Shown here piece by piece: positions 6,071-54,199 of a stretch of 64,000 nucleotides of DNA. A model generated the notes under the pieces. That model was not told the DNA's origin, made no database searches, and saw only the letters and a program-made list of their open reading frames with translations. Numbering within the stretch: position 1 is the first letter of the stretch; the number at the start of each line of letters is the position of its first letter. The stretch is from assembly GCA_024696005.1 (NCBI GenBank), contig JAILHF010000029.1:31370-95369 (forward strand), written 5' to 3'. The DNA comes from Lachnospiraceae bacterium. Lineage in GTDB: Bacteria; Bacillota; Clostridia; Lachnospirales; Lachnospiraceae. The position numbers and the translations under genes were made by a program.

Positions 6071-6174
6071 GTTTTTTCAATATGCAAAATGCCGAAATAT
6101 TGGGGCAAATACCGTGAAAAATCCTTGCAACCTATGGAAAACGGCGCAAAAAGCCCCCATATGGTGCGAAAGTA

Positions 6175-6203
6175 TTGACAAACGTGGGAAAAACGCATAT
6201 AAA
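6175..6203 (+). promoter_or_regulatory. promoter TTGACA-17-TATAAA for HU gene
   Basis: TTGACA 6175-6180; TATAAA 6198-6203. Confidence 0.75.
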
Positions 6204-6263
6204 GGTACTTGTAGCTTTTTTGGAAGCACAGAAAGAATCAAACATAGTAGGAGGAATTTGAAG

Positions 6264-6536
6264 ATGAACAAGACAGAACTGGTTGCAGCAATCGCTGATA
6301 AGGCAAAGCTGAGCAAGAAGGATGCAGAGATCGTACTGAACGCTTTCACCGACACGGTGACCAAGGAGCTCAAGAAGGGCGGCAAGGTCCAGCTGGTAGG
6401 TTTCGGTACGTTTGAGGTTACCAAGAGAAACGCACGCACCGGCCGCAATCCTCAGACCGGCGAGACCATGAAGATCGCAGCTTCCAAGGCTCCCAAGTTC
6501 AAGGCCGGCAAGGCTTTCAAGGACGCCATCAGCTAA
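6264..6536 (+). CDS. hup: HU family DNA-binding protein
   Basis: MNKTELVAAIADKAKLSKKDAEIVLNAF...GFGTFEVTKRNARTGRNPQTGE. Confidence 0.97.
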   Translation: MNKTELVAAIADKAKLSKKDAEIVLNAFTDTVTKELKKGGKVQLVGFGTFEVTKRNARTGRNPQTGETMKIAASKAPKFKAGKAFKDAIS

Positions 6537-6587
6537 GCAGAGATCAGTCTGAGGGATCCGACAGGGATCCGGATAGCAGGATCATTT

Positions 6588-6619
6588 CAGGGTGTGCCGT
6601 GTGTACACCCTGTTTTTTT
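6588..6619 (+). terminator. intrinsic terminator
   Basis: CAGGGTGT / ACACCCTG stem followed by TTTTTTT. Confidence 0.8.
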
Positions 6620-6652
6620 GAAAGAAGCAGCAGTGAGAAGGGGAGGACGAGC

Positions 6653-6892
6653 ATGCGTCTGGACAAATATCTGAAGGTGTCGAGGCTGATCAAACGGCGC
6701 ACCGTGGCAAACGAAGCCTGTGATGCGGGCCGTGTGATGCTCAACGACAAGGTGGCCCGCGCCAGTGCCGAGGTGAAAGCGGGCGATACCATCACCATAG
6801 CGTTCGGAAACCGTGAGACCAGAGTGCGTGTGCTTTCCGTGCAGGAGAGCATCCGCAAGGAGGACGCGGAGGGAATGTACGAGTTCATCTGA
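6653..6892 (+). CDS. rqcP: S4-domain RNA-binding protein RqcP (YabO/Hsp15-like)
   Basis: MRLDKYLKVSRLIKRRTVANEACDAGRVMLNDKVA. Confidence 0.9.
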   Translation: MRLDKYLKVSRLIKRRTVANEACDAGRVMLNDKVARASAEVKAGDTITIAFGNRETRVRVLSVQESIRKEDAEGMYEFI

Positions 6893-6966
6893 ATTATGTA
6901 AACCATATATGGTGTGGCTGCCGGACCGTCGGACTACATGCTGTGGTTGACGATAAGCTTCGGTTC

Positions 6967-6998
6967 GCGGTATCATTATAAGTAGTTTTTGATACCGC
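6967..6998. repeat. inverted repeat GCGGTATCA-N14-TGATACCGC upstream of DivIC-like gene
   Basis: Perfect 9-bp arms. Confidence 0.7.
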
Positions 6999-7052
6999 AA
7001 TCATGTGCCGCCCGGCAGTGCGGGGGGGCAAAAAACCGAGGTGATCCGGGGA

Positions 7053-7382
7053 ATGGGCGTGAGGAACGCTGACAAAAAGAAAAAGAATGTAGCTTTTCGC
7101 AAAGAGAAGAAGAAATATGCGAGCGCCATTCTGGTGATCGCTGTCGTCGGAGCATTCCTTTTGATCTTTACTCACAATTCCGGTAACATGCAGACGGAAC
7201 TGGACGGGCTGAACCATAATGTGGAACAGGTGCGCGCGCAGCTGGAGGAGGAAAAAGCCCGGGCAGAGGAACTGAAGCAGTTTGAAACCTATACCCATAC
7301 CAAGAAGTATGCGGAACAGGTGGCCAAGGAAAAACTGGGTTATGTATACGAAGGAGAGATCATTTTCCAGAAGGATAACTGA
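7053..7382 (+). CDS. septum formation initiator (FtsB/DivIC-like)
   Basis: Single TM + coiled coil + 'YAEQVAKEKLGYVYEGEIIF', located between rqcP and tilS as in many Firmicutes. Confidence 0.85.
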   Translation: MGVRNADKKKKNVAFRKEKKKYASAILVIAVVGAFLLIFTHNSGNMQTELDGLNHNVEQVRAQLEEEKARAEELKQFETYTHTKKYAEQVAKEKLGYVYEGEIIFQKDN

Positions 7383-7385
7383 GGC

Positions 7386-8378
7386 GTGGAACTGAAAGAG
7401 CAGGTAGGCGCTTATATCGAGGCGCAGGGGCTGATACGGCCGGAGGATACCGTGTTGATCGGGGTGTCCGGAGGAGCCGACTCCCTGTGTCTTTTTCATT
7501 TGCTGAGGGAACTGCACGGGCACATCCTGGTCTGCCATGTGCATCATCATCTGCGGGAAAACGCCGATGCGGATGCCGAAGCGGTCAGGGCGCTCTGTGA
7601 AGAGTGGGGCGTGGCTTTCCGGCGGGCCGACGTGGATGTGGAGGCGCTGGTGGAACGGGAAGGCCTCTCCTGCGAGGAGGCGGCGCGCATCCTGCGCTAT
7701 GAAGCCCTGCGCTCCTGCCTGGCAGCGGAAGAACCCGACCCCGGAAAGAGACGTCTCGCGGTAGCCCATACCATAGAAGACGACGCGGAGACGGTCCTGC
7801 ACAATCTGTTCCGCGGGAGCGGGCTTAAGGGACTGGGCGGGATCCGACCCAGGCAGCAGCTTGAGGACTGTGTCCTGATCCGGCCTCTTTTGGAGGTATC
7901 CCGGGCGCAGATCGAAAGCTATCTAAAGGAGCGCGGCATTTCCTGGTGCTGTGACGAGAGCAACGAGGGGGATGACTATGCGCGCAACCGCATCCGGCAT
8001 CACATCCTTCCGGAGGCACAGCGGCAGGTAAACGCCCGGGCGGCTCTCCATGTCCATGCGGCGGCAGAGCAGCTCTCCGCGGCGGAGGATTTCATCGAAG
8101 AGCTGCTTAAGGGGGCGTATGGGGCATGCTGTGAGGAGATCGCGGACGGTCTGCGGATGCGCAGGGACGTCTTTTGCGGGCTGCATCCCTATCTGCGGCA
8201 GCGCCTGGCTCTCCTGTGCATGCAAAAGGTCTCGGGCAGCGCGAAGGATATCTCGGCAGTTCATGTGCGGCTGCTTTCGGAGCTGTTCGGAATGCCGCGG
8301 GGGAAGATGCTGGATCTTCCGCATCGCCTGCACGCCCTGCGGACGGGGGAATGCGTCGAGCTGGTCCGGAAAGCGTAA
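7386..8378 (+). CDS. tilS: tRNA(Ile)-lysidine synthetase
   Basis: SGGADS P-loop (LIGVSGGADSLCLF), 'HHLR', 'ARNRIRHHILP'; GTG start. Confidence 0.95.
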   Translation: MELKEQVGAYIEAQGLIRPEDTVLIGVSGGADSLCLFHLLRELHGHILVCHVHHHLRENADADAEAVRALCEEWGVAFRRADVDVEALVEREGLSCEEAARILRYEALRSCLAAEEPDPGKRRLAVAHTIEDDAETVLHNLFRGSGLKGLGGIRPRQQLEDCVLIRPLLEVSRAQIESYLKERGISWCCDESNEGDDYARNRIRHHILPEAQRQVNARAALHVHAAAEQLSAAEDFIEELLKGAYGACCEEIADGLRMRRDVFCGLHPYLRQRLALLCMQKVSGSAKDISAVHVRLLSELFGMPRGKMLDLPHRLHALRTGECVELVRKA

Positions 8379-14430: not shown

Positions 14431-14477
14431 TACCTACTTTTGGCTGGTATACAAGGCGAACGGGATAATGGTATAAT
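14431..14477 (+). promoter_or_regulatory. Box A: TACCTACTTTTGGCTGGTA dyad + TATAAT -10
   Basis: Same motif/-10 arrangement as at 43632 and 46523. Confidence 0.65.
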
Positions 14478-14540: not shown

Positions 14541-17500
14541 ATGAAGAAAAAAAGCATGTTGCTTCGAAGGATCGCAGCGTTCCTGCTGGCCCTTTTGCTC
14601 GTCTGGACGGAATTTGCCGCCGGCGGCCTGAAGGTCCGGGCTGAGGAACCGGAGGGAACGGAGGAAGCCGACGGCGGGACCGGTGAAGTGAACCCCGAAG
14701 GCAAGCCCACGATGATCTATGTGAAAACCTCCAAAGGCGATGTGAACCTTGTGGATAAGACTACCGTGGAGGACGGCGACGGGAAGCTGCAATACAACGC
14801 TTCCACCTGCACGCTGACCATGACGGATTTCAAGATCACCCGGCTTTACAAGCACAGCCAGTCGGAATACTACGGACTGTTCTGCAACGGAAAGCTCAAC
14901 ATTGTCGTGAACGGGGATTGCTCCATCGGCGGCACGGCACCTTCCGATGCGACGGTCATAGACGGCATCAACGTGCAGCAGTCGCTGAGCATCAAGAACA
15001 GCAGCTCGTCTCTCACGAGTTCGCTCACGGTCTCTGTGTCGGGCACATCCAAGGGAACCTCCAGCGCGATCTATTCGGGCTACGGCCTGACCATAGACGG
15101 GCTGCTTCCGGTCTATGCCACGGCTGCTTCTTCCGTGCAGGACAGCTACGGCGTGCGTGCCATGAGAGGGCTGACCCTGACAGGAAGCGCGACTTTGCGG
15201 GCTACCGGCGGAAGCGTCACGAACAAGGGGCGCAGCAGCTACGGCATCCTTTCCAACGGAAACGTCAGCATAAAGGGAGGCACGCTCAAAGCCACCGGCG
15301 GTTCGGTAAAGGATTCCACAGCCAGGAGCTACGGCATGTATGTGGCCGGCGAACTGAATGTGAGCGGCGGAACGTCGACGCTCGAGACGGCGTCCGTGTC
15401 CGGTGATTACTTTACGGAAAACTATGCTTTGTATGTCACGACGGCAACGACCATCAGCGGCGGAAAGCTGAGCGCGAAGGCAGGGAGTGCCTCCGGCAGC
15501 GCCCGCAGCCACGGCGTTTTCAGCGGCGGAAAGCTCAGTGTGACGGGCGGCACGCTGGAGGCGGAAAGCGGAAGCGCAGCCGGCGATGACAGTGTGGCCG
15601 TGGATGCGGGCACCTTTGCGATGAGCGGAGGAACCCTCAGCGCCACCGCAGGCAAGGCGACCAAGGAGAGCTACGGCCTGCGCATCGCGGATAAAGACAC
15701 GCGTGAGACCATGATCACCGGAGGCACCATCACGGCCAAAGGCGGCAGCGCCAAGACCAGCTACGGCATCAAGGTGAATACGTATCTGACGCTTACGGGC
15801 GGAAAGTGCACGGCAAGCGGCAACACCGAATCCATCAGCGCGGCCAAGCCCAAGAGCGGAACGGATGAAGTGACCATCAAGGCGCCGGTCTTCTGGTGCG
15901 GTTCGAGCGCGGGCAATGCCGTGGTCAAAAAGGATTATGTCTATGGTTCGAAATATGCCGTGCTCGATGCGACCACGGCGGTGGTTCTGATCAACGACTG
16001 GACCTGGGGCGATACACCGAACAGTCCTTCCGTGATGAACCTGGACCGTTACGGGAACGGGAAGGTCAGTGCCGGCTTTGCGTATAAGAAGAGCAGTGAG
16101 GAAGACAGCGCTTACGGTGCAACGGTTCCTTCCGATGCAGGTAATTATGTGGTGCGGGCGAGCCTCTCTAACGGCCTGAAGGCGACAAAGAGCTTCAAGA
16201 TCAAACAGAGAGAGCTTTCGGAGGTCACGGCGACGGTGACGGCCGGAACCTATAACGGCTATTCGCAGCAGGCGACGATCAAACTTACCTACAAGGACAA
16301 GGAACTGAAGAACGGAACGGATTATACGATCGCCGAAGGGGCCAAGGCCACGGAGGTGGAGACCCTTACCGCAAAGATCAGCGGCAAGGGGAATTTTACC
16401 GGAACGAAGAGCGTGAAATGGAGCCTGAACAAGGCCGAGCTCAGCAGGGACTGTTTTGATCTGAAGACCAATCTGAATTATGTGTATGACGGCAAAGGAA
16501 AAAGCGTTGATAAGCCGGATCTGAAGGGCGTGTATACGGGATGCGGAACCATCACGATGCTTTATGACGGGAAGACGGAGCTTCCCGTGAACACGGGCAG
16601 CGTGAGCGTGACCTTCAACGTGTCGGAAGGAAAGAACTTTAAAGCGGCCAGCGGCCTGTCTTACGGGACCATGGTCATCAATAAGGCGGCCAACACGATG
16701 GTGGTGCGCGATCTTACCACCGTGAACAAGGGCAAGGAACTGGATCTGAACGCGGCGGTGCAGAATGCACAGGGAAGCGTGAGCTTTGCGATCGACGGAA
16801 GTGCCCTGGGATGCACGCTGAGCGGAAGCGTCCTGAAAACGGGCGACACGGCCGGAAGCATCAAGATCAAAGCCACGGCAGCCGGAAACGACAATTACAA
16901 GGAAGCGGAAATAAGTTTTACGGTGAACATCCGCGAGCTGAAGTACGCCGACCTGAGCGTGACCATGCCGTCCATTACCTATGGCCAGACGCTTGCCGAT
17001 CCTTCGTACACCGTTCCTGCCGGCGGCTGGGCGGAAACGCCGGAGATCCGGTATACCGGACGTACCGCTGCCGGGGACGAATACAACAAAACGACCAAGC
17101 CTTCCACGGCGGGCAGCTATGTGGTCAGCATCGAAGGCATGACAACGGATACCATCTACAGCGGAAGCGCTTCGTTTACGATCTCGCCCAAAGAGGTGAA
17201 GCTTGTGAGCGTTTCGGCTTACGGAAGGGCTTACAACGGGGATACCTATGTGCAGATGGATCACGGTTCGGCGGTGCTGGAGGGTGTGATCCCGGCGGAT
17301 GACGGTGTCATGGGCTGCTTCGTGTTCGGCGAATTTGCGGATCCCGCGGCCGGCAAGAACAAGCCCGTCGTCATCACGAGCGTCGAGCTTTACGGCGGAA
17401 TGGAGATGCTGGAACAGAACTATGTCCTGAACGATTCTGCCTTCCCCACGAACGTTACCGCAGACATCGATCCTCTTCCCGTGAAGATCACGGCTGAGGA

Positions 17501-20276
17501 CCAGATACAGGAAGCCGGCGTGCCGGTGGTCTCCTCGGTGGACCGGGTGCGCATGGAACTGATAAGTGAGTATGATGTGATGCCCACAGGCCATGTCCTG
17601 AGTGCGATCACGATCACGGGTGATACTTCCGTTCCCGGTGAAGGCGGCAAGCTCACGCCTTCCGCTGCAAAGATCAGCGATGCGGACGGAAACGACATGA
17701 CGGCAAACTATGCCTTCACCTATGCGCAGGGAAATCTTACCGTGCTGGCACGCAGCCTGGAGTCGGCCGTGGTGGAGGTGGTCCCTGCAGAGGGCGGCTA
17801 TGTGTTCAACGGCAGCGCGATCGTTCCGAAGGATTCGGAGGTGACGGTCACACTCGACGGAACCGAGCTTGCAGGCGGAACGGATTACACGCTCTCGTTT
17901 TCCGACAACGTGCATGCGGGAGCCGCCACGGTAAAGGTGAACGGCAAAGGAGGATTCTCCGGTCAGGCAACGGGTAGTTTCCGGATCGGACCGAAGACCT
18001 GCACGGAACCGGAGATCGAAGTGGCCAATGCCGTCTGGAACGGCTCGGCACTGGAGCCCACCGTGACGGTCCGCGATCCGGAAACGGGTCTTGTGGACGC
18101 GATGGAATATTCCCTGATCTACAGCAACAACGTAAAGGTGGGTGATGCGGCCGGCGTGACGATCATCGACCGCGACGGCGGCGATTATGTCATCAGCGGC
18201 AGCGGCACCTTCAGCATCAAAAAGGGCGCGATGCGCACGCTGGATACGATCAGCCGTTATGTGAGCGCCACGGACAAGACACCCAGCATCTCCATAGCGG
18301 CCATGCTCCCGGCTGACGCGGGCAATGCCACGGGCTATGACTTCTGGGAGGAGCCCATCGAGAACGGACTGAAACTGACGGATTACCGCATGGACCAGGC
18401 GACCGGCGAGATCATCCTGGAGATCGCTTCCGGCGCAGTCACCGACTGGGCCAAGATATCGGTATGGATCAAGGGCGAGAACTATGATGTGAACTTCTGG
18501 GTGCAGGTCATCCGGAGCAATCTGAAGAATCCGGAATATACCGCTCCGCAGGCAGCTGTATTGAGCTATACGGGTGAAGCACAGCAGCTTCTGATCCCCG
18601 GTTCGGTCACAAAGGGCGGCAAGATGGAATACAGCGAGGACATGTATGAGTGGAGCGAGACCATTCCGGTAGGAACGGAATGCGGAGAGTATACCGTCTA
18701 TTACCGCATCACGTCCACAAGTGAGTACAACGGTGTCGACGCGACGCCCATCCATGTGCGCATCCGCAACGTGGTCTACAAGCTCACGGTCGTGAACGGA
18801 GAAGGCAGCGGTGATTACGAAGCGGGTGAGAGCGTGGTCATCAGCGCATCACCGGCCCCGTCGGGACAGGTGTTTGACAGCTGGACCGGTGAGGAAGATG
18901 TGATCTTCGCGGACGAGGGTGCATCCGTCACCACTCTCATCATGCCGGAGAGAGCCACGACGGTGACTGCAACTTACAAGAAGGACGAGAAGCCGCAGCC
19001 GGTGCTCAAGAAAGCGCCGGTGGGGAAGGACGACCTGAAGTATAACCACATCGGACAGGTGCTGATCGAGGGCGGTGTCGCCGAAGGCGGAACGCTGCTC
19101 TATGCACTGGGAAGCAGTGCTTCGAAAGCCCCGAAGGCAAGTGACTTCAGCAAGGCGCTTCCGAAGGGTGAGGAAGCCGGATATTACTATGTATGGTATT
19201 ACATCAAGGGCGACGCCGAGCACGGGGACAGTGCACCGGTGTGCATCACCGTGGTGATCCGCCAGGAGAACGGTGAGGTGCCCGATCCCCCCGCACCGGG
19301 ACCCGGCGACGGCGATTCGCCCATGGATCCGGTGGTGACGGTGGACAACCTCACCACGGTGCTGCATCTGGTGAAGGGTCAGAAATTCACGATCCCGAAG
19401 GACATGTGGAGCAACAGCAAGAAGTGTGACTGGAAGAGCAGCAGCCCCAAGGTCCTGACTCTTTCGAAGAAGGGCGTGGCCGTTGCGAAGAAGGCGTCGC
19501 CCGACGGCGGATGCGTGTATCTGCTCAATGAAAACAGCGGCAAGAGCATTATGGTCTATATCTCGGCACCTGCATTCTCCGGCAAAAAGGCGCTGGAGCT
19601 GGCCGCAGGAGAGAGCGGCAGCATCGGCTTTGACCGTGGGGATGCGGAGCTTCCCGTCTTTTACGCTTCTTCCGCGCTGGATGTGGCGACGGTGGATCAG
19701 AGCGGCAATGTGAAGGCAGTGGCAAAGGGAAGCGCCGTCATCACGGCCTATGTGAACGGCAAGAGCTACACCCGCAAGGTGAGCGTATCGGAAAAGAGCG
19801 TTGCTCTGACACGCACCCTGCATGTCAACAAGGGCGCCACGAACAAGGCCATCAAGGTCAAGGGCCTGAAGAAAGCAAATTGGGAAGTGGAAAGCGGCAC
19901 GTCGGTGAGCATCGGAAAGAAGAACAAACTGACGGCCGAAGCCGTGGGTGTTTCCGTGATCAAAGCGACGGTTGACGGCACGGATTACAGGATCACGGTG
20001 ATCGTGGAGGATCCGGTCATCACGGCAGCCGATATCACGGCGGCAAAAGGAAAGAACAAGTATGACGCAAAGCTGGGCATCGGCTATGAGAAGAAGATCA
20101 CGTTCCGCGGGCTGTCCTTTGACGATCCCGAGCGGCAGGTCGTGTTCAAGAGCAGCAAGCCGGCGGTCGCGTTTGTGGATTGCGACGGAACCCTGAAGGT
20201 ACGTTCGAAGGGCAAGGCGAAGCTCACGGCCAAAGTGAACGGCACGACCATTACGATCAATGTGAAGGCAGACTAA
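14541..20276 (+). CDS. very large secreted surface protein: N-terminal repetitive Gly/Ser-rich beta-solenoid-like region, MBG/YDG-like domains, InlB B-repeat-like domain, C-terminal Ig-like module
   Basis: Signal peptide after RBS ggaggag; repeated 'SGGTLxAxGGS..' blocks; 'YDGKGKSVDKPDLKGVYTG'; 'YKLTVVNGEGSGDYEAGESVVISASPAPSGQVFDSWTG'; C-terminal 'GKAKLTAKVNGTTITINVKAD'. Confidence 0.85.
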   Translation: MKKKSMLLRRIAAFLLALLLVWTEFAAGGLKVRAEEPEGTEEADGGTGEVNPEGKPTMIYVKTSKGDVNLVDKTTVEDGDGKLQYNASTCTLTMTDFKITRLYKHSQSEYYGLFCNGKLNIVVNGDCSIGGTAPSDATVIDGINVQQSLSIKNSSSSLTSSLTVSVSGTSKGTSSAIYSGYGLTIDGLLPVYATAASSVQDSYGVRAMRGLTLTGSATLRATGGSVTNKGRSSYGILSNGNVSIKGGTLKATGGSVKDSTARSYGMYVAGELNVSGGTSTLETASVSGDYFTENYALYVTTATTISGGKLSAKAGSASGSARSHGVFSGGKLSVTGGTLEAESGSAAGDDSVAVDAGTFAMSGGTLSATAGKATKESYGLRIADKDTRETMITGGTITAKGGSAKTSYGIKVNTYLTLTGGKCTASGNTESISAAKPKSGTDEVTIKAPVFWCGSSAGNAVVKKDYVYGSKYAVLDATTAVVLINDWTWGDTPNSPSVMNLDRYGNGKVSAGFAYKKSSEEDSAYGATVPSDAGNYVVRASLSNGLKATKSFKIKQRELSEVTATVTAGTYNGYSQQATIKLTYKDKELKNGTDYTIAEGAKATEVETLTAKISGKGNFTGTKSVKWSLNKAELSRDCFDLKTNLNYVYDGKGKSVDKPDLKGVYTGCGTITMLYDGKTELPVNTGSVSVTFNVSEGKNFKAASGLSYGTMVINKAANTMVVRDLTTVNKGKELDLNAAVQNAQGSVSFAIDGSALGCTLSGSVLKTGDTAGSIKIKATAAGNDNYKEAEISFTVNIRELKYADLSVTMPSITYGQTLADPSYTVPAGGWAETPEIRYTGRTAAGDEYNKTTKPSTAGSYVVSIEGMTTDTIYSGSASFTISPKEVKLVSVSAYGRAYNGDTYVQMDHGSAVLEGVIPADDGVMGCFVFGEFADPAAGKNKPVVITSVELYGGMEMLEQNYVLNDSAFPTNVTADIDPLPVKITAEDQIQEAGVPVVSSVDRVRMELISEYDVMPTGHVLSAITITGDTSVPGEGGKLTPSAAKISDADGNDMTANYAFTYAQGNLTVLARSLESAVVEVVPAEGGYVFNGSAIVPKDSEVTVTLDGTELAGGTDYTLSFSDNVHAGAATVKVNGKGGFSGQATGSFRIGPKTCTEPEIEVANAVWNGSALEPTVTVRDPETGLVDAMEYSLIYSNNVKVGDAAGVTIIDRDGGDYVISGSGTFSIKKGAMRTLDTISRYVSATDKTPSISIAAMLPADAGNATGYDFWEEPIENGLKLTDYRMDQATGEIILEIASGAVTDWAKISVWIKGENYDVNFWVQVIRSNLKNPEYTAPQAAVLSYTGEAQQLLIPGSVTKGGKMEYSEDMYEWSETIPVGTECGEYTVYYRITSTSEYNGVDATPIHVRIRNVVYKLTVVNGEGSGDYEAGESVVISASPAPSGQVFDSWTGEEDVIFADEGASVTTLIMPERATTVTATYKKDEKPQPVLKKAPVGKDDLKYNHIGQVLIEGGVAEGGTLLYALGSSASKAPKASDFSKALPKGEEAGYYYVWYYIKGDAEHGDSAPVCITVVIRQENGEVPDPPAPGPGDGDSPMDPVVTVDNLTTVLHLVKGQKFTIPKDMWSNSKKCDWKSSSPKVLTLSKKGVAVAKKASPDGGCVYLLNENSGKSIMVYISAPAFSGKKALELAAGESGSIGFDRGDAELPVFYASSALDVATVDQSGNVKAVAKGSAVITAYVNGKSYTRKVSVSEKSVALTRTLHVNKGATNKAIKVKGLKKANWEVESGTSVSIGKKNKLTAEAVGVSVIKATVDGTDYRITVIVEDPVITAADITAAKGKNKYDAKLGIGYEKKITFRGLSFDDPERQVVFKSSKPAVAFVDCDGTLKVRSKGKAKLTAKVNGTTITINVKAD

Positions 20277-43631: not shown

Positions 43632-43676
43632 TACCTACTTTAGGGGGTAGGCAGAAAACGGAGAATCCGCTATAGT
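43632..43676 (+). promoter_or_regulatory. Box B: TACCTACTTTAGGGGGTAG + TATAGT -10
   Basis: Motif start to -10 start = 39 nt, identical to Box C. Confidence 0.7.
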
Positions 43677-43682
43677 TGAAGC

Positions 43683-45293
43683 ATGGATCGCATACGTTTT
43701 GCCGACAAAAGAATCTTCGGGCTGGTCGCTCTTCTCTGGATCGTCGGGATCGTTTTCAATCTGATCCCCGTGACCGGAAGGCGGCTTCATAATGTATCGG
43801 CCACGATGTTCTGCCTCATCATCATGCTCTGGAGCCTTTCGCTGCAGCACCGCATCCTGGACCGCAGGATCTGCCTGCGCATGCGCATTTGCTGTCTGTC
43901 CATGCTGCTCCTCTTTTTGCTGCGGATGAGCAAGTTCACCTTTTTCCCGGATTCGAAGATCATCCTTGAGCACATATGGTACGCCTACTACATCCCCATG
44001 ACGGCCATCCCTCTTTTCATGTTTATGGCAGCGCTCCGGGTGGAGCCGGTGAGCTTCGGAAAACACGCTGCGCGGGCGGAGCTCATCCTGCTGCTCCTGG
44101 AAGTACTGCTCGCAGGCCTGATCATGACCAACCATCTGCACAGTCAGCTGTTTCATGTCACGGTCTTTCCGGACAAGGAATATACGAGAGGCTGGCTGTA
44201 TTTTGTCGTCCTTTTCTGGATGTGCGGCCTGGGCATCGGGAGCCTGGTCCTGTTTGTCCGGAAATGCACCATCTCGGCCGCCAGGGAACTCCGCGTCCTG
44301 CCGGCCCTCTGCGTTCTGGCGGGCTTCGGTCTGCTGATCTGGTACCTGATCAACGGAGGGGCACCGAAAATATTCGGTTACAAGCTGTTTCATCTGCAGG
44401 AAGCGTATTGCCTGCCGTTCATCACGGGCTTTGAGAGCGTGCTGCTCATCGGTCTGGTCCCGGCAAATACCGGCTATGGTCTTTTCTTTGCCCATTCGGG
44501 GGTGAGAGCCGGCATCAGTGACAGGGAGGGAAACATGCTCCGGGTTTCCGATAACTGGGATGACGGAAAGACTGACGAAGACCAGTGCATCCTGAAGGAA
44601 GAGATCTCGGGGGGGCATGTCAGCTGGGTCGAGGATCTGGGACCGATCCACCGCCTGAACCGGGAGCTTTCGGAGCTGGCAGAGGAGCTGGAGGATGAGA
44701 ACGACCTGATCCGCCAGGAGAACGATCTGCGTGCCGAGCGTGTCTCCTATGAGACACGCAACCGCCTGTACAACCGCCTTTACGGTGCGGTACGGCCCCA
44801 GGCCCTGCGCACCGACGAGCTGCTGACGGTAGGCGAAGGGGAGGAGGAAGCCTTTCGCAGGCGTCTGGTCCGGGCAGGCGTGCTCAGTGCCTATATCAAG
44901 CGCATGGGAAACCTGATGCTGCTCACGGACGGCGCGGAGCGGGTGAGTTCCGGGGAATTGGGACTGGCCCTGAAGGAATCGCTGGAATATGTGCAGCTTT
45001 CGGGCTGCGCGTGTGAGCTCAGGGAGAACGGAAGATGCGACCTTCCGGCGGATCTGCTGCTGCTTGCCTATGAGCTTTTTGAAACGGCGCTGGAGGATGC
45101 CTGGCCCCGGCTTCACTGCTGCGCGGTCCTTCTGGACTGCAGGGAGCGCTTTGTGCTTCAGATCACGCTGGATGCGGAACTGAATGACTTAAGGCCTTCC
45201 TGGAAGGCCGGGGAGCTGTCCGCGCTCAATGCGAAGCTGGAGCTGGATTACGAGGATGATACCGGTTATGTACGACTGGAGGCAGGAATATGA
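43683..45293 (+). CDS. 7TM-type membrane sensor (histidine-kinase-associated, no recognisable catalytic kinase motifs)
   Basis: About seven hydrophobic segments at N-terminus, then coiled coil and degenerate cytoplasmic domain; overlaps next kinase gene. Confidence 0.65.
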   Translation: MDRIRFADKRIFGLVALLWIVGIVFNLIPVTGRRLHNVSATMFCLIIMLWSLSLQHRILDRRICLRMRICCLSMLLLFLLRMSKFTFFPDSKIILEHIWYAYYIPMTAIPLFMFMAALRVEPVSFGKHAARAELILLLLEVLLAGLIMTNHLHSQLFHVTVFPDKEYTRGWLYFVVLFWMCGLGIGSLVLFVRKCTISAARELRVLPALCVLAGFGLLIWYLINGGAPKIFGYKLFHLQEAYCLPFITGFESVLLIGLVPANTGYGLFFAHSGVRAGISDREGNMLRVSDNWDDGKTDEDQCILKEEISGGHVSWVEDLGPIHRLNRELSELAEELEDENDLIRQENDLRAERVSYETRNRLYNRLYGAVRPQALRTDELLTVGEGEEEAFRRRLVRAGVLSAYIKRMGNLMLLTDGAERVSSGELGLALKESLEYVQLSGCACELRENGRCDLPADLLLLAYELFETALEDAWPRLHCCAVLLDCRERFVLQITLDAELNDLRPSWKAGELSALNAKLELDYEDDTGYVRLEAGI

Positions 45294-46522
45294 CGTTCAC
45301 TTCCGTTTCCTCCGAATGCCGCGGGCTGATCCTCGTTGTCTGTTCCGTCATCCTGCTGATGTATCTTTATGTCCTGCTGCGCATCCGGCTGCTCGGCAGG
45401 CCCTGGAAGGATTATGTCCTTCCCGGGGTGGCTGCGCTCGCCTGTTTTGCGCTCTGGCAGATGATGAGCATGATTCAGGAGGGCGATCTGGTTCCATCCG
45501 GTCCGGTCCCGCTGGCACTTTTGCTGCCGGGGCTTGTTCTGCTCCTTGTGTATGCCGTATATTTGCAGCTGAGGCTGCTGGGCCTGGAGCGGAGGACGCT
45601 GTCCGCCGTGTCCGTCAAAGAGGCTTTTGACCGGCTGCCCCTGGGACTGGCCTTTTATTCGGAGGAGGGCATCCCCATCATGGTCAACGAGAGCATGCAG
45701 GAGATCAGCCGCAGGCTCTACGGGAAGTCCGTGTCGGATGCGGCGGCATTCTGGGCGGCGCTCCGCAGGAACACCACGGAGAGCCTGCTGCCGGAGGATG
45801 AGGCGCTGGTCCATGGCAGGGGAGGGGAAGTCTACAGCGTAAAACGCAGGATCCTGGAGATAAACGGCCGGCCGGTGCGTGAACTGACGGCCCTGGACAT
45901 CCGCAGGGAGCATGCTCTTACCCGGGAACTGAAGAACAGGCGGATACGGGCCGGGCATCTGAACCGGCGCCTGAAGGCTCTGATGGGGACCATTGAATAC
46001 GTGACCATGAACAGGGAACTCCTGGCGCTGAAGCGGGCCCTTCATGACAATATCGGCCAGTGCATCCTCACGGCAAAGCGCTATCTGTACTCTCCGCGGA
46101 GTGTGGATAAGGAGCGGATGCTTTCTTTCTGGCGCGAGAACATGAGGCATCTGATCAATGACAGGCAGGAGGAATGGGAACTGCCGTATTATGTGATCAG
46201 CAAGGAGGCGGACCGTCTGGGGATCAATCTGCAGATCATCGGGGAACTGCCCGACGATCCCAAACGCATACCGATCGTGGATGCCGCCATTTCGGTACAT
46301 ATCGGCAATGTGCTCAAGCACGCGGACGGTACCGAAGCAACGGTAACGGTGACGCAGAAGGACGGGCGCTATGTCATGGTCTTTACGAATAACGGCCGCC
46401 TGCCGGATGGGGAGATCGAAGAAAAGGGAGGTCTTCTGAACCTGCGCCGTGAGGTGGAGGCTGCCGGAGGAGAGATGGAGATAAGCACACGCCCGGCATT
46501 CGAGATGCGGATCACGATTTAA
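45290..46522 (+). CDS. NarL-type sensor histidine kinase
   Basis: H-box 'LKRALHDNIGQCIL', N-box-like 'HIGNVLKHADGTEATVTV', 'KGGLLNLRREVEAAGG'. Confidence 0.82.
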   Translation: MTFTSVSSECRGLILVVCSVILLMYLYVLLRIRLLGRPWKDYVLPGVAALACFALWQMMSMIQEGDLVPSGPVPLALLLPGLVLLLVYAVYLQLRLLGLERRTLSAVSVKEAFDRLPLGLAFYSEEGIPIMVNESMQEISRRLYGKSVSDAAAFWAALRRNTTESLLPEDEALVHGRGGEVYSVKRRILEINGRPVRELTALDIRREHALTRELKNRRIRAGHLNRRLKALMGTIEYVTMNRELLALKRALHDNIGQCILTAKRYLYSPRSVDKERMLSFWRENMRHLINDRQEEWELPYYVISKEADRLGINLQIIGELPDDPKRIPIVDAAISVHIGNVLKHADGTEATVTVTQKDGRYVMVFTNNGRLPDGEIEEKGGLLNLRREVEAAGGEMEISTRPAFEMRITI

Positions 46523-46567
46523 TACCTACCTTTGACGGTAGCGCGGAAGATGATAATCGGTTATAGT
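46523..46567 (+). promoter_or_regulatory. Box C: TACCTACCTTTGACGGTAG + TATAGT -10
   Basis: Perfect CTACC-N6-GGTAG dyad; same spacing as Box B. Confidence 0.7.
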
Positions 46568-46656: not shown

Positions 46657-47280
46657 ATGCCCGTCAGGGTAGTGATCGCGGAAGATTTCCGCATGGTACG
46701 TGAGATATTTGAAAATGCGGTAAAAGAGGCGGAAGGCTATGTTCTTGCAGCTTCTTTTCCCACGGCTGTGCAGGCGCTGAAATACCTGGAGAACGAGGAT
46801 GCGGATCTGGTCCTGATGGATGTGCTGATCCCGGGCAGCATGAGCGGCCTGGACGCTGCGGAAAAGATCAAGAGCATCAAGCCGAAGGTAAAGATCATCA
46901 TCGTTACCTCCATGCCCGAGCTTTCCTATGAGAAAAGAGCGAAGGAGATCGGCGTGGAGGGCTTCTGGCAGAAGGAAGTGCAGGAGCAGTCCATCCGGGA
47001 GATCATGGAGCGCGTGGCGGGCGGCGAGACCGTCTATCCGAGTGAGCAGCAGGAGGTCCCGATCGGGAATGCCCTGAGCACGGATTTTACGGAGCGGGAA
47101 GTGGAGATCCTCGAAGAGCTCGTTGCCGGCCTGTCGAATAAGGAGATCGCGGAAAAGCTCTTTCTGGAGGTGTCCACCGTAAAGATGCATATTTCCAACA
47201 TGCTGCAGAAGACCGGCTATCACAGCCGTCTGGAGCTGGCCGTAAAGGCAAGGCATTTCGGGCTGGTGATCAGTGAGTGA
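46657..47280 (+). CDS. NarL/LuxR family response regulator
   Basis: MPVRVVIAEDFRMVREIF...LVLMDVLIPG; LuxR HTH 'LTEREVEILEEL..GLSNKEIAEKLFLEVSTVKMHISNML'-type. Confidence 0.95.
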   Translation: MPVRVVIAEDFRMVREIFENAVKEAEGYVLAASFPTAVQALKYLENEDADLVLMDVLIPGSMSGLDAAEKIKSIKPKVKIIIVTSMPELSYEKRAKEIGVEGFWQKEVQEQSIREIMERVAGGETVYPSEQQEVPIGNALSTDFTEREVEILEELVAGLSNKEIAEKLFLEVSTVKMHISNMLQKTGYHSRLELAVKARHFGLVISE

Positions 47281-47288
47281 ATATTCCT

Positions 47289-47927
47289 TTAATTCACCAG
47301 TTCTTCCATGCTGCACCCGAGAGCCCGTGACAGCTGAAGAAGCGTTTGTCCCCGGGTTTTGCGGATATCCCGCTGTCCCTGTTCAAAAAGCTGGATCTGG
47401 CGCAATGCCACTCCGGACCGATCCGCCAGCATTTTCTGGGATAGGCCGGCATAGGTCCGCAAACGTCGAAGCATGGGCGTCTTCTCAAAATTGCTGATCT
47501 TTTCGTCCATAATATCTGCAAAAAGCGAGACATCCGCCTCGTGCAGCGTATCGTACATGCCGTAGATCTCTTCAATGGGAATCGCCATATTTATCTTTTT
47601 ATACGAATGACAACTCTTCCACTGATAAAAGGCCAATGACCAGCCGATCCAGTATTCCGCAGATTTTTCCACATACATGACGTCTTCCGTATCGAGCTGC
47701 AGATCTGTGCATTCTTCAACCACTTCCCTTGCCACTTCACATCCGTTTTTTCCGGCAACATAGGTCGGATTCCCGATCTCAAACTGTCTTGCCATCCCGC
47801 TGACGATAAAGAAATGCTGATACTCCTTCAGATCCATGGACAGTGTGTTCACGGCATAGTCATACATGTCACCCATGACTCTCTGGGCCAGCGGAAGGTA
47901 TAATTCATCATAGGAACAATTCGTCAT
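47289..47927 (-). CDS. XRE family protein, putative antitoxin of DUF3990 pair
   Basis: C-terminal HTH 'LRRLRTYAGLSQKMLADRSGVALRQIQLFEQGQRDIRKTRGQTLLQLSRALGC'; N-terminal DUF-like region; overlaps upstream gene. Confidence 0.8.
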   Translation of the reverse strand: MTNCSYDELYLPLAQRVMGDMYDYAVNTLSMDLKEYQHFFIVSGMARQFEIGNPTYVAGKNGCEVAREVVEECTDLQLDTEDVMYVEKSAEYWIGWSLAFYQWKSCHSYKKINMAIPIEEIYGMYDTLHEADVSLFADIMDEKISNFEKTPMLRRLRTYAGLSQKMLADRSGVALRQIQLFEQGQRDIRKTRGQTLLQLSRALGCSMEELVN

Positions 47928-48576
47928 CCTTTACCGTACCTCTCATGATATCCAATATATAGATTTCATTCACCCGCGATGCCTTAGGCCGTTCTGAGGA
48001 ATAATCGCGACGTGCAGCCGCGTCTCTTTCTTTTTTCTTTTTGTAATACAACTCAGCGGAAGCGGCCTCGGCCGACACAAAAGAAATATGTTCAAAGGCT
48101 TTCCGGCTTTTCAGCACGATCTGTTCCCCAAGCTTTCCGAGACGCATCGCGGCGGAAAGCTTCTGAAGAGATATCGTTCCCATGATAAAATCCTGCGCAA
48201 AGGAAAAATACGAATCATCGGCTCTGTAACCACGGATAATGTCAAATCCGGAAATATCGATCAGATAATGCTTCCGGAGATGATCTTTTGCCTCTTCGGC
48301 GATGCTTTTTCTCTGCCAGTATCCTCTGTAACAGGTTAATAAGGCGAGCCAGTTCAGAATATTATGCTTATCATCATTCAGATCGCAGATCTTCAGCCCC
48401 TTCAGATCCATGTCATAACAATTTATGAATCCATCCCTGTCTCGCTTGCAAGCCCATTCCGCAGCGATCTCCCTGTTTTCGGTACAGTAAAAGCCCCTGC
48501 CGTAATCGTTTGACTGCTTTCCGAGCCCATATTCCGGTTTATATATGATCTCTTCCGATCCGTGAAATAACAGCAT
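47908..48576 (-). CDS. DUF3990 family protein (putative ADP-ribosyltransferase-like toxin)
   Basis: MLLFHGSEEIIYKPEYGLGKQSNDYGRGFYCTENREIAAEWACK...GFINCYDMDLKGLKI. Confidence 0.78.
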   Translation of the reverse strand: MLLFHGSEEIIYKPEYGLGKQSNDYGRGFYCTENREIAAEWACKRDRDGFINCYDMDLKGLKICDLNDDKHNILNWLALLTCYRGYWQRKSIAEEAKDHLRKHYLIDISGFDIIRGYRADDSYFSFAQDFIMGTISLQKLSAAMRLGKLGEQIVLKSRKAFEHISFVSAEAASAELYYKKKKERDAAARRDYSSERPKASRVNEIYILDIMRGTVKDDELFL

Positions 48577-48633
48577 TTCATTCCTCCGGCACACAGCCTG
48601 AGCATGACTGCAGCAATATATGCCCACGCTTTT

Positions 48634-48662
48634 ATTATATCGCTGCAGCGATATGGCGTCAA
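48634..48662 (-). promoter_or_regulatory. promoter TTGACG-17-TATAAT with perfect palindrome ATATCGCTGCAGCGATAT in spacer
   Basis: Palindrome 48637-48654; -10 48634-48639; -35 48657-48662 on minus strand. Confidence 0.75.
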
Positions 48663-48846
48663 GATGCAGGCCACGGGGACGGTTCTTTCGAAAATTGAAA
48701 AAAAGATTCCCCGCGGAGGTGCCGCGGAATTTAGTCTTGCCACGCGACATTCAGGGGGTGAATGTACAGGATATTTTTGATTGATTTCCGTGGAATTCCG
48801 GGATCAGAAAGATCGGATAATAAGTGAAGTAACAGCGGGAATGAAA

Positions 48847-49363: not shown

Positions 49364-52300
49364 ATGAAAATGAGAAGAAAGAAGCTATTCGGAAGACAGA
49401 TCCTGTCGTTTCTGCTCGCATTTGTTCTGCTTTTCAGCCAGAGCAGTCTGTTTGCGTTTGCGGAAGGGGATGACGAGTGTTTAGATGAGCCAGTAAATGA
49501 GGTGGATGAAGATGAAAATCCGGATGAGAGGACAAGTGAAGAAGAACCGGTTGGAACAACTACAGAGGAAGATCGCGTGGTAGTTCCATATGATAAAAGC
49601 CTCCTTAATCAAGTCGGAGCTCAAGGCGCATACCAGTGTATGGCATATGCATTTGCTTATGCAACAACCATCATAGATAAAAAAGTCCATTCAGGAAGTG
49701 AGTATTGGAAACTGATTGATGGTGTTTGGCAAGCGTCATGGCCTAAAGGATGGTCGGATTGTACAGATAGAAGTCTGAAAACAGCTTACGATAATATAAA
49801 TTTAAATAAACCAATGGTATTGCATGTTTCTGGGAAATATCGTGCAGGCCATGAGGCAAATGGTCAATATGGACATTGGGTTACAGTGATTGGCTATAAA
49901 AAAACAGCAAATAGAGATGCATTGAAAACCAGTGATTTTTATATTATTGACCCTGGTGATTATTCATATGCATATTTATCAGATAATTGTTCAGACGGTC
50001 AAATGAGAGTTTCTGTTACTACGGGGAATAACGGCGGTGGAGGTAGTACTGGCTCTTATACTGTAGCCAATTCTGGAGTTACAAACATATCTAAAACTGG
50101 AGCAACAATCAATGCTACAGTTTCGCCTATGGCATATGTTAGTGAAGTTGGTTTTTATTTAGGAACATCAAAAACAAACATGCAAAAGCATGTGGAGAAT
50201 ACGACAGGAAATGTAAAATCTATATGGTATGATTTGGGAACAGGGAAATGGACAGGTGCGTTATCGGCTGGGACAACGTATTACTATAGAATTTACATAG
50301 TATCAGGTGGAAAGACATATGAATCTTCTATAGATTCTTTTATGACGCAACCCAATCCGGTTACTCCGTCTACTGATATTAAGGATGGAGGTCGCTATTT
50401 AATTGAGAGTGTATTGTCCGGTAAAGTGATAGAGGTTTCAAATGGTGTTGATACTGATAGAAAACAGTTGAATGTGTGGGAGTATACGAATGATCCTTGG
50501 CAATCTTGGATAGCCGTTAAAAGTGGTGATAAATATATCTTAAAAAATGCCTATACCGGAAAAGCGATGGATGTTTATAAAGCTTCTTTGGATGAGGGCG
50601 CGGCTATTACACAGTTTACATTAGATGGCTCGGCATCGCAGTATTGGTTTTTGGATAAAAAAGCGGATGGATCATATGGGATCGTTAACAATAATTCAGG
50701 GTTAGCGGTTGATCTTATGGGATTTAATAAAGAAAATGGTGCTACATTAGGACAATATATCTACTATGGAAACAATAATCAGCTTTGGTATTTCAATGAG
50801 TTGAATAATGATGATGATGTGATATATGACAGCGGGTATACGGATGTTACCCAGACAACAGCCAGGATTAATGCTACGCTTCCTGTAGTAAGGAGTTGTT
50901 CAGATGTTGGTTTCTATTTAGGGACATCTCCTGATAAGATGGAGAAGCATAACGAAACAATTGGTGGTAGAATCAAGACAATATGGTATGATCTGGGAAC
51001 TGGTAAATGGACATCAGCGCTAAGTAAAGGAACTACGTATTATTATCAGCTGTACTGTGTTATTGATGGCATTACATATAAAACGCCTGTAAACAATTTT
51101 ACGACGTTGGGCGATAAGATAGCGCCGAATATTAAGCAGGCTTATATAACCAATATCACGCAAGATGGGTATTCGGTTGTATGTGAAGCAACAGATAACA
51201 TAGGAGTTACGAAGGTTTGTTTTCCTACCTGGACAGAGGCTAATGGTCAGGATGACTTGGTATCAGATTGGCCCAATAATACAAAGGCTACATCATCAAA
51301 AGGAAATGTTTACTATTATGATGTAAAAATTTCATCGCATAATAATGAAAGAGGGACATATATAACACATGTTTATGCATTTGATGCGGATGGAAATAAA
51401 GCGTGTGTCCAGCTTTCAGTTGTTGTACCGACGTACGTTTCGGGAATAACGCTTTCAAAAACGTCCTTGTCGTTAAAAGCTGGGGAGGCAGCAATGCTTA
51501 CTGCTACAGTTGCCCCGTCAAATGCTACATTAAAAAATCTTGAATGGATGTCAGATGATGAAAGCATAGCAACTGTAGAAGATGGCAAAATAACAGCAAT
51601 AGCTGTTGGAAAGACAAAAGTACATGTATCTGCACAAGATTCAAGCGGTGTTAGCGCAACATGTGAAGTAACGGTTACCGGTTCCTCAAATCCTACTCCC
51701 GGTCCTGAAGATGACGAGAAGGCTGTAATAGCCGTATCTAAGGTATCCGGTACTGCGGGCTCGAAGGTAGAAGTGCCTGTATCGATAAGCAATAACCCGG
51801 GCATTGCATCTGCCGGATTTAAGATCGATTATGACAAGACAGCCCTTACGTTGAGCGACATAAAGGCCGGCAAGGTATTCAGCGAAGGTACTTTTGACGG
51901 AAAGACGTCCACCGGAGTAGTACAGTGGTATTATGCCGGCGATGATGAAGTGATCAAAACCAACGGTGAATTGTTCCGGGCGGTATTTACCGTTAACAGC
52001 AGTGCAGCCAAGGGAAGCTATGATGTATCTGTAGGTTTGCTGAATGGCGACAATGCCAATTTTACGGACCAGAACGGAAACGCTGTTCCGGTAAGCTTTA
52101 CAGATGGTAAGGTATCTGTAGGCATGGGAGTAAAAGGCGATCTTACCGGTGACGGTAGTGTAGCCATGGGCGATGTGGTGAAAGTGGCCCGCGCGGTGGC
52201 CGGATATATAACGCTTACAGCCGAAGAGGAAGCCCTTGCAGATGTTACGGGAGATGGAAAGGTGGCTATGGGCGATGTGGTAAAGATCGCAAGATTTGTC

Positions 52301-54199
52301 GCAGGGTATATTGACAGCCTGAGTGCCACAGCAGAGTTTTTGAGTTCAGACGATGAAGAGTTAGTCATAACGGCAGCCATGCAGGAAGATGCAGAGATGA
52401 TCGATATGGCTGAGGGTGAGGCTGCGATGAAGGTGGCTGAACAGAAAGCCAAGCCCGGGGATACGGTAGAACTTCCTGTTGAGATCGAAACCAACCCGGG
52501 GATCGCATCAGCTGCCCTGTCTGTGAGCTATGATGCGGCAAGCCTTGAATTGAGATCCGTAACCAAAGGATCTGTATTTGAAAACGGAACCTTTACCGCT
52601 GATGTAGATAAGAACCTGGTACAGTGGTATGATGTTTCGACGAATAAGGACACTACAGCTACAGGTACGATGTTTACATTGGAATTTGCGGTCAGAAGCA
52701 CTGCAACGGCGGGAAAGCATACTGTCAGTGTGGGATATCTGGATAATGATGAGGCAAATGTCACTAATATAGAGTCAAAGAATGTAAAGGTTGCGTTTAC
52801 AGACGGAGTTGTTGAGGTAGAGGGCGGGAGTGAAAAGGAAGACCCTGTACCTGTCGGAACGGCTGAAATAGAGACAGGCAAAGCGTCGGTCAATCCCGGA
52901 AAGACTGTGGAGATCCCCGTTCAGATCAAGACCAACCCCGGTATTGCAGGCCTTTCATTATCCGTAAGCTATAACAATGCAGTTTTGACACTTAAATCCA
53001 TTACCAAGGGCAAAGTGTTTACGGCAGGAACATTCACGGGAGATCCGGAAAAGAATCTGATCCAGTGGTATGATGTATCTTCCGATAAGAATACCACAGC
53101 TACCGGTGTATTGTTTACTCTTGGATTTGAAGCGAAATCCGACGCGGAGGCCGGGAAATACGCTGTAAGTGTCGGGCTTCTGAATGGCGCCCCTTCAAAT
53201 GCAACAAATATAGACTCAGAGAATGTTCCTGTGACATTTACGGACGGTGAAGTGGAGATCACAAGCGGAACGATCACACCGCCCGAACCGATGATCGAGA
53301 AAGAAGATCCCTTTTGCATTGCACCGGTGATCACAGATAAGACAACAGAGATCTACCTTGTCAAGGGACAGAAGTTTACCATGCCCGATACCGGCTGGAC
53401 GAGCAGCAATAAAAAACAGGTGACGGTAAGCAAGAAGGGAGTATTGACGGCAAAGAATGTCACTGCCGCTCCGGTTACTCTTACAAAAGGCGATCGTTCC
53501 ATAAAGGTATATGTGACAAAGCCTGTGATCGATAAGTCTCTTACCATAAGTGATGGAGAAGAACATCCGATCAAACTTACCTATGACACTGAGCATTTGG
53601 AAGTCTATTGGTATAGCAGTGATCCGAATGTGGCAAAGGTTGATGAAGATGGCATAGTAGAGCCTATTTCCGCCGGAACCGCTACTGTAACTGCGTATAT
53701 CAACAGCAAAGCTTATAAGTGCAAGGTGAAGGTTGTTGAAACCGAACTGTTCGGCTATAGATCCATATACCTGACGGAGGGGGCTAAAAAGCCTCTGAAG
53801 ATAAAGGGCTTGAAGAAGGCTGTTTGGGAAAGTGATGACAATACTGTTGCAACGGTGGTCAATAACAAGATCGTTGCCGGGAAGCCGGGATATGCATTTC
53901 TCAGTTCCACCTATGAAGGTAAAACCTATCATATCCACGTGTATGTAGAAGCCATCGACCTGGATATGCGCGATATCGTTCAGAAGGGGAAGAACAAGTA
54001 TACGATCACAATGGTTGCCGGTGATGATACATCAGTAGATTTTAAGTATTTAAAGCATGACTATGTATTCACAAGCAATAAGTCGGAAATAGCCTATGTT
54101 GACAAAACGGGATATCTTGTTGCCAGAAAAGCCGGAAAAGCAAAGCTTACGGCAAAAGTGAACGGAAAGACGGTCACCATAACTGTAACGGTAAAATAA
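49364..54199 (+). CDS. secreted multi-domain protein: C39-like cysteine protease, two Fn3-like repeats, ricin-type lectin, GBS Bsp-like domain, BIG2, cohesin, dockerin, two cohesins, C-terminal Ig-like module
   Basis: Signal peptide; 'NQVGAQGAYQCMAYAFAYA...GQYGHWVTVIGYK...DFYIIDPG'; ricin 'GKVIEVSNGVDTDRKQLNVWEY'; 'DNIGVTKVCFPTWTEANGQDDL'; cohesin and dockerin repeats. Confidence 0.87.
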   Translation: MKMRRKKLFGRQILSFLLAFVLLFSQSSLFAFAEGDDECLDEPVNEVDEDENPDERTSEEEPVGTTTEEDRVVVPYDKSLLNQVGAQGAYQCMAYAFAYATTIIDKKVHSGSEYWKLIDGVWQASWPKGWSDCTDRSLKTAYDNINLNKPMVLHVSGKYRAGHEANGQYGHWVTVIGYKKTANRDALKTSDFYIIDPGDYSYAYLSDNCSDGQMRVSVTTGNNGGGGSTGSYTVANSGVTNISKTGATINATVSPMAYVSEVGFYLGTSKTNMQKHVENTTGNVKSIWYDLGTGKWTGALSAGTTYYYRIYIVSGGKTYESSIDSFMTQPNPVTPSTDIKDGGRYLIESVLSGKVIEVSNGVDTDRKQLNVWEYTNDPWQSWIAVKSGDKYILKNAYTGKAMDVYKASLDEGAAITQFTLDGSASQYWFLDKKADGSYGIVNNNSGLAVDLMGFNKENGATLGQYIYYGNNNQLWYFNELNNDDDVIYDSGYTDVTQTTARINATLPVVRSCSDVGFYLGTSPDKMEKHNETIGGRIKTIWYDLGTGKWTSALSKGTTYYYQLYCVIDGITYKTPVNNFTTLGDKIAPNIKQAYITNITQDGYSVVCEATDNIGVTKVCFPTWTEANGQDDLVSDWPNNTKATSSKGNVYYYDVKISSHNNERGTYITHVYAFDADGNKACVQLSVVVPTYVSGITLSKTSLSLKAGEAAMLTATVAPSNATLKNLEWMSDDESIATVEDGKITAIAVGKTKVHVSAQDSSGVSATCEVTVTGSSNPTPGPEDDEKAVIAVSKVSGTAGSKVEVPVSISNNPGIASAGFKIDYDKTALTLSDIKAGKVFSEGTFDGKTSTGVVQWYYAGDDEVIKTNGELFRAVFTVNSSAAKGSYDVSVGLLNGDNANFTDQNGNAVPVSFTDGKVSVGMGVKGDLTGDGSVAMGDVVKVARAVAGYITLTAEEEALADVTGDGKVAMGDVVKIARFVAGYIDSLSATAEFLSSDDEELVITAAMQEDAEMIDMAEGEAAMKVAEQKAKPGDTVELPVEIETNPGIASAALSVSYDAASLELRSVTKGSVFENGTFTADVDKNLVQWYDVSTNKDTTATGTMFTLEFAVRSTATAGKHTVSVGYLDNDEANVTNIESKNVKVAFTDGVVEVEGGSEKEDPVPVGTAEIETGKASVNPGKTVEIPVQIKTNPGIAGLSLSVSYNNAVLTLKSITKGKVFTAGTFTGDPEKNLIQWYDVSSDKNTTATGVLFTLGFEAKSDAEAGKYAVSVGLLNGAPSNATNIDSENVPVTFTDGEVEITSGTITPPEPMIEKEDPFCIAPVITDKTTEIYLVKGQKFTMPDTGWTSSNKKQVTVSKKGVLTAKNVTAAPVTLTKGDRSIKVYVTKPVIDKSLTISDGEEHPIKLTYDTEHLEVYWYSSDPNVAKVDEDGIVEPISAGTATVTAYINSKAYKCKVKVVETELFGYRSIYLTEGAKKPLKIKGLKKAVWESDDNTVATVVNNKIVAGKPGYAFLSSTYEGKTYHIHVYVEAIDLDMRDIVQKGKNKYTITMVAGDDTSVDFKYLKHDYVFTSNKSEIAYVDKTGYLVARKAGKAKLTAKVNGKTVTITVTVK
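51718..52130 (+). other. cohesin-like domain 1 (approximate limits)
   Basis: AVIAVSKVSGTAGSKVEVPVSISNNPGIASAGFKIDYDKTALTLSDIKAGKVFSEGTFDGK...VQWYYAG. Confidence 0.82.
52131..52323 (+). other. type I-like dockerin (two Ca-binding segments)
   Basis: GDLTGDGSVAMGDVVKVARAVAGY ... ADVTGDGKVAMGDVVKIARFVAGYIDSL. Confidence 0.87.
52424..53272 (+). other. cohesin-like domains 2 and 3 (tandem, approximate limits)
   Basis: KPGDTVELPVEIETNPGIASAALSVSYDAASLELRSVTKGSVFENGTF...VQWYDVS and NPGKTVEIPVQIKTNPGIAGLSLSVSYNNAVLTLKSITKGKVFTAGTF...IQWYDVS. Confidence 0.82.

Follow-up and report, generated by a model that had tools for sequence, protein, structure and literature searches.

A TACC-N10-GGTA promoter box as the predicted operator of a NarL/FixJ-type three-gene system and of surface-protein genes in Lachnospiraceae

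In the NarX/NarL system of Escherichia coli the NarL dimer reads dyads of TACC heptamers, with a preference for 7-2-7 sites (PMC4549865, PMC9314961), and at ogt1052 it activates transcription from -44.5, a site overlapping the -35 element (PMC9314961). The system described here shares with NarX/NarL a LuxR/FixJ-type regulator, inverted TACC-type heptamers and, as predicted below, activation from a site overlapping the -35 region, but differs from it in the 7-4-7 arrangement of the heptamers, in the presence of two kinase-like proteins, in a sequence similarity that is only moderate and in its putative targets, which are surface proteins here whereas those of NarL serve nitrate respiration. With VraSR/LiaSR of Firmicutes it has in common an envelope-related output and a kinase whose CA domain is closest by sequence to that of VraS; the HTH domain of the regulator is closest to 4wt0, which we take to be LiaR, and to VraR, the NarL structure being matched as well. 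In contrast to VraSR/LiaSR, whose operator, as far as is known, differs from the box reported here, a 7TM putative pseudokinase is present, and the genes flanking the system did not visibly include one of the LiaF type. DesR of Bacillus subtilis is the best solved relative of the regulator and the fold of DesK matches both kinase cores, although DesK/DesR has a single kinase, and its target and operator differ from those of the present system. FasBCA of group A Streptococcus is likewise an operon of two kinase-like membrane proteins and one regulator, in which FasB and FasC form a heterodimer and one of the two is a proposed pseudokinase (PMC12675982). Unlike the regulator discussed here, FasA binds a ComE-like sequence and not a NarL-type site, and the output of FasBCA is a small RNA. 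A full-text literature search retrieved no description of the box or of the surface-protein control considered below; a search with the letters of the box returned only primers and similar noise, and one for NarL contact residues gave no matches.

The three genes lie on the forward strand of the window, the 64,000-nucleotide stretch of a Lachnospiraceae genome that was analysed. The first (43683-45293, +) encodes a 536-aa 7TM sensor with a degenerate histidine-kinase core. Pfam HisKA_7TM matched 8 of 16 sensor orthologues, the predicted fold is 7TM-PAS-DHp-CA (mean pLDDT 80, pTM 0.52) and Foldseek matched it to DesK and others. No invariant His or N-box Asn was found at the catalytic positions of the DHp/CA region across the orthologues, suggesting that the sensor is a pseudokinase and that, as proposed for FasBC, one partner of the pair is devoid of phospho-acceptor or ATP-site residues. 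The second gene (45290-46522, +) encodes a 410-aa histidine kinase with three TM helices, a PAS-like domain, a HATPase domain and the H-box HDNIGQ (H252). HDNIGQ, N340 and GGL are invariant in 15 orthologues; HATPase_c was recognized in 11 of the 15 kinases at E-values up to 0.1, the window copy reaching only E 0.014. The nearest solved relatives of this kinase are VraS, DevS and DesK, VraS and DesK being matched in fold and sequence, and its H-box His and N-box Asn (N340) are those expected of the HisKA_3/DesK type. Because the models were folded singly, the pairing of sensor and kinase is proposed from their common operon and joint conservation and by analogy with FasBC (PMC12675982).

The third gene (46657-47280, +) encodes a 207-aa NarL/FixJ-type response regulator in which both domains of the class, the receiver (Response_reg, E 5.5e-21) and the C-terminal HTH (GerE, E 1.8e-18), were detected with Pfam; against the NCBIfam NarL equivalog it scored 79 bits, below the cut-off of 250. 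Its orthologues (about 16-17) are 69-85% identical to the window copy, E9, D10, D55, T84 and K106 are invariant in 17 sequences and the recognition helix STVKMHI(S/T)NML is nearly invariant. Directly after the regulator, on the opposite strand (47289-48750, -), a DUF3990 protein (Pfam E 3e-42) is encoded together with an XRE-type HTH partner, a pair that matches the PADLOC candidate system PDC-M42 (M42A, M42B).

The first-pass annotation of this DNA had reported that the promoters of the sensor-kinase pair and of the regulator carry copies of one box, TACCTACYTTnGnnGGTAG, each starting exactly 39 nt ahead of a TATAGT hexamer, and both sites fit this description. Box B (TACCTACTTTAGGGGGTAG, 43632-43650, +), the putative sensor-kinase operator, contains an 18-bp dyad TACC-N10-GGTA at 43632-43649 and its -10 hexamer is located at 43671-43676 (+). 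Box C (TACCTACCTTTGACGGTAG, 46523-46541, +), the putative operator of an internal response-regulator promoter, is followed by its -10 hexamer at 46562-46567 (+). A weaker third copy, Box A (TACCTACTTTTGGCTGGTA, 14431-14450, +), has one extra spacer base and a TATAAT at 14472, at an offset of 41. When the window was scanned with a weight matrix made from the boxes of all species, B and C included, only C (29.5 bits), B (28.4) and A (9.5, ungapped) exceeded 8 bits. The 3.75-Mb genome contains three exact copies of the pattern, namely B, C and a site (G000:C5:14745) placed 236 nt upstream of a gene for a secreted beta-helix protein, which is cut off by the contig end, and a reversed control pattern produced zero exact matches; these genome-wide searches were made by pattern only and may miss weaker boxes elsewhere in the source genome. 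The same genome also encodes a paralogue of the kinase (L203), around which no box exceeded 8 bits. As the pattern derives from B and C, the independent test was made on other genomes.

Over 43 boxes, complementary bases occupy positions 1-18 in 98%, 2-17 in 98%, 3-16 in 93%, 4-15 in 86% and 7-12 in 98%, and the conserved symmetry is TACC-N10-GGTA, with heptamers in a 7-4-7 arrangement. The dyad CTACC-N6-GGTAG, which had been noted in Box C, is indeed present there (46526-46541), but as the conserved core it was rejected, since only 12% of the boxes have its innermost pair (8-15) and 74% its outer pairs, a weaker pairing than that of the outer pairs of TACC-N10-GGTA (86-98%). An overlapping second dyad, CTAC-N8-GTAG, is found in 74-100% of the boxes; one further pair extends it in Box C to CTACC-N6-GGTAG, and boxes of the TACCCCC or TACCGCC form have lost it. 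In locus L192 the box is a perfect palindrome, TACCGCC-TTTT-GGCGGTA. The inverted heptamers with TACC ends of a NarL-type operator are thus present, while the 2-bp gap between NarL-type heptamers is replaced by 4 bp in the 18-bp dyad. An engineered NarL site, TACCCCTAAAGGGGTA (PMC4549865), has a heptamer nearly equal to that of TACCCCC-AAAT-GGCGGTA in loci L163-L166.

At L169:4070, L173:5255, L173:11606 and the sensor promoters of L193 and L200, a terminator-like hairpin was observed between the box and the -10, its stem formed by the right half-site GGNGGTA and a TACCNCC behind it, together with a T-run. It is a doubtful, rather speculative extension that at some promoters the right half-site doubles as the arm of an intrinsic terminator and that the three components constitute a master switch of the giant surface proteins of rumen Lachnospiraceae; if true, sharing of the half-site with a terminator arm would place binding and insulation from upstream transcription in the same bases.

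The position of the box relative to the promoter was evaluated in 36 non-redundant boxes gathered irrespective of a -10, calling as -10 any TA...T hexamer with at least 4/6 matches to TATAAT. Such a hexamer lies exactly 39 nt downstream in 24/36 boxes (in 20/36 with at least 5/6 matches), while at other offsets it was found in at most 8/36, with a background below one per offset. This fixed offset supports the earlier proposal that the box takes the place of a -35 element. The centre of the dyad is located 30.5 nt before the -10, that is, at about -42 to -42.5 when the -10 is placed at -12 to -7, and relative to this predicted start the box has the attributes of a class II site, with a centre near -41.5, overlap with the -35 and a fixed distance to the -10. 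The hexamers at the -35 positions are poor, TAGCGC in Box C (2/6 to TTGACA) and TAGGCA in Box B (4/6), and an A-tract (AAA) stands ahead of the box in most copies. Considering the class II position and the lack of a good -35 at the B and C promoters, activation with positive feedback is the likeliest outcome of binding. That the regulator is instead a repressor covering the -35 region, with negative feedback, is improbable: binding at this place can also block RNA polymerase, but neither promoter could rely on a good -35 instead, the rigid distance between box and -10 is what direct polymerase contact requires whereas a repressor would tolerate other spacings, and at ogt1052 NarL acts as an activator (PMC9314961).

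Association of the box with the system was assessed across genomes. The exact box is present in 7 of 60 related genomes, the source genome being included in these counts; a kinase orthologue (at least 47% identity) is encoded in 9 of the 60, and these 9 include all 7. A scan of a collection of 84,980 species made with the DNA box only returned 109 stretches, from which we chose 11 records that were not in the first set and came from Lachnospiraceae or other Firmicutes-type genomes; 7 of these 11 encode a kinase orthologue (46-56% identical), compared to only 2 of 391 other members of the order that were drawn. In the latter the exact box was found in 0/391 (1/392 overall). Fisher tests gave 9e-8 for the co-occurrence in the 60 relatives and 4e-11 for the second comparison, values that overstate the case since the tests ignore relatedness and related genomes are not independent; most of the genomes are metagenome assemblies. 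The majority of the other stretches from the scan belong to distant phyla, have no -10 at 39 and resemble background, and counts of boxes with up to 3 mismatches were near those of the reversed control, for which reason such matches were not counted toward the regulon where the system is absent. Four box-selected genomes are devoid of the kinase (G061, G062, G063 and G065). The boxes of G061, G063 and G065, without a -10 at 39, are probably due to chance. G062 (Tb.RUG.206), in which no recognisable kinase or regulator orthologue was found, yet contains two boxes, at least one of which precedes a secreted protein, and constitutes a real exception to the co-occurrence, although its assembly may be incomplete.

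Altogether, this co-occurrence agrees with the assignment of the box to the NarL-type system made in the first-pass annotation. By itself it cannot name the protein that binds, and the box could be recognized by another factor, for example an unlinked co-inherited regulator that controls both the system and the surface-protein genes, an idea to which the boxes of G062 lend some weight. Nevertheless, we regard this as quite improbable, as the TACC heptamer dyad is the target of a NarL-type dimer (PMC4549865, PMC9314961) and, across genera, only the three-gene system recurs beside the box while its other neighbours vary.

The box, which occupies the place of a -35 at a fixed distance from the -10, could also be viewed as an element read by an alternative sigma factor, but this is very improbable, considering that the -10 is of the housekeeping TATAAT type and that the element is an 18-bp dyad, fully palindromic in L192, of a kind that sigma factors are not known to read. 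A chance likeness of two sequences within one window can be dismissed, for although the pattern was made from these two sites, the third exact copy in the genome, the co-occurrence and the spacing peak in other species already refute it.

The promoters of the system itself were compared in 19 loci that contain the three genes or their remains, 9 in the genus, 8 in box-selected genomes (one genome with two) and 2 from the draw within the order. A recognisable box precedes the sensor gene in 17 of the 19 loci, covering several genera, and in 16 of them a -10 follows at an offset of 38-39. The divergent versions TACCCCCAAATGGCGGTAG (L163-L166), TACCGCCTTTTGGCGGTA (L192) and TATAGACnTTTGGGGGTAG (L195 and L200) retain the ends or the right half. 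L194 (Butyrivibrio) and L201 bear the system without a box at the sensor promoter; in L194, two genes for secreted proteins lie ahead of the sensor in the same orientation, and a box is located upstream of this pair. In L197 the box lies in a divergent gap, with no clear -10 toward the sensor. The kinase-regulator gap of the other loci read is either 20 nt long or box-free, so that the counterpart of Box C is absent from them and the box at the regulator promoter, seen in the source genome only, was discarded as a general trait. Since most genomes have the box at the promoter of the system itself, autoregulation, suggested from the window, is very likely, but it represents the smaller part of box use, as most boxes precede genes of secreted surface proteins. 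Two loci show altered arrangements. In L198 (G067, 5814-8183, -) the sensor is fragmented, the kinase truncated and the regulator was not found, with the box and a TGTAGT at 39 being kept, which reflects either decay or an assembly error. In L176 (G025) the start of the sensor is fused to the end of the regulator and the middle is missing, representing a deletion variant or a misassembly; a full copy occurs in L169, also of G025.

Outside the system, 23 of 27 non-redundant boxes have a gene for a signal-peptide protein or lipoprotein within about 240 nt downstream, the local background for signal-peptide-like starts being 69/319 ORFs; a 24th gene (L168:19705) is lipoprotein-like and fails the crude signal-peptide rule. 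Many box-bearing genes encode proteins of more than 1,000 aa, and the domains of the products examined include InlB B-repeats, Big_2, Listeria-Bacteroides repeats and beta-helices. The gene probably controlled from Box A (14541-20276, +) encodes a secreted protein of 1911 aa that has InlB B-repeat and Big_2 domains. The exceptions include short ORFs and L168:8063 (-), where the protein encoded behind the box (791 aa) has a TIR-like N-terminus and matches SAVED/TIR weakly in PADLOC. These data suggest that the box marks a surface-protein regulon distributed over several genera. Signal peptides of the products of box-bearing genes, for example those at 14541 of the window, L180:5832 and L170:1520, share an LLTxxLCxGEFxxTGLxVxAE-like motif, perhaps a sorting signal. 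The window encodes a further secreted protein (1611 aa; 49364-54199, +) with three cohesins, a dockerin, a ricin-B lectin domain and Big_2, and the weight-matrix scan detected no box upstream of its gene.

Comparison established the box with its fixed spacing and symmetry, its joint occurrence with the system and the type of gene that it precedes. Based on these, it can be proposed, with a probability of roughly 80%, that the box serves as operator for the regulator encoded at 46657-47280, which would act as a class II activator and turn on its own system by positive feedback together with a surface-protein regulon. According to this model, the 7TM pseudokinase sensor and the PAS-type kinase, encoded in one operon, would act together, probably as a heteromer, and phosphorylate the regulator at D55. 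The phosphorylated dimer would then bind the inverted heptamers TACC(T/C/G)(A/C)C-N4-GGNGGTA, whose centre lies some 30 bp ahead of the -10, near -42, where it would substitute for the missing -35 and recruit RNA polymerase. It would target its own operon and a set of surface-protein genes whose large products are secreted or lipid-anchored. The steps that we infer are that this regulator is the binder, that it activates instead of repressing and that the heteromer forms.

The control of surface proteins in rumen Lachnospiraceae, which are largely uncultured, appears to be little studied, and the analysis yields for them a readable operator, a regulator and a list of putative targets. Owing to its high specificity (a single genome among the 392 of the order), the exact box is suited to regulon prediction in further genomes. 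In addition, the pair formed by the putative pseudokinase and the kinase provides a second candidate, besides FasBC, for the gating of a working kinase by an inactive partner.
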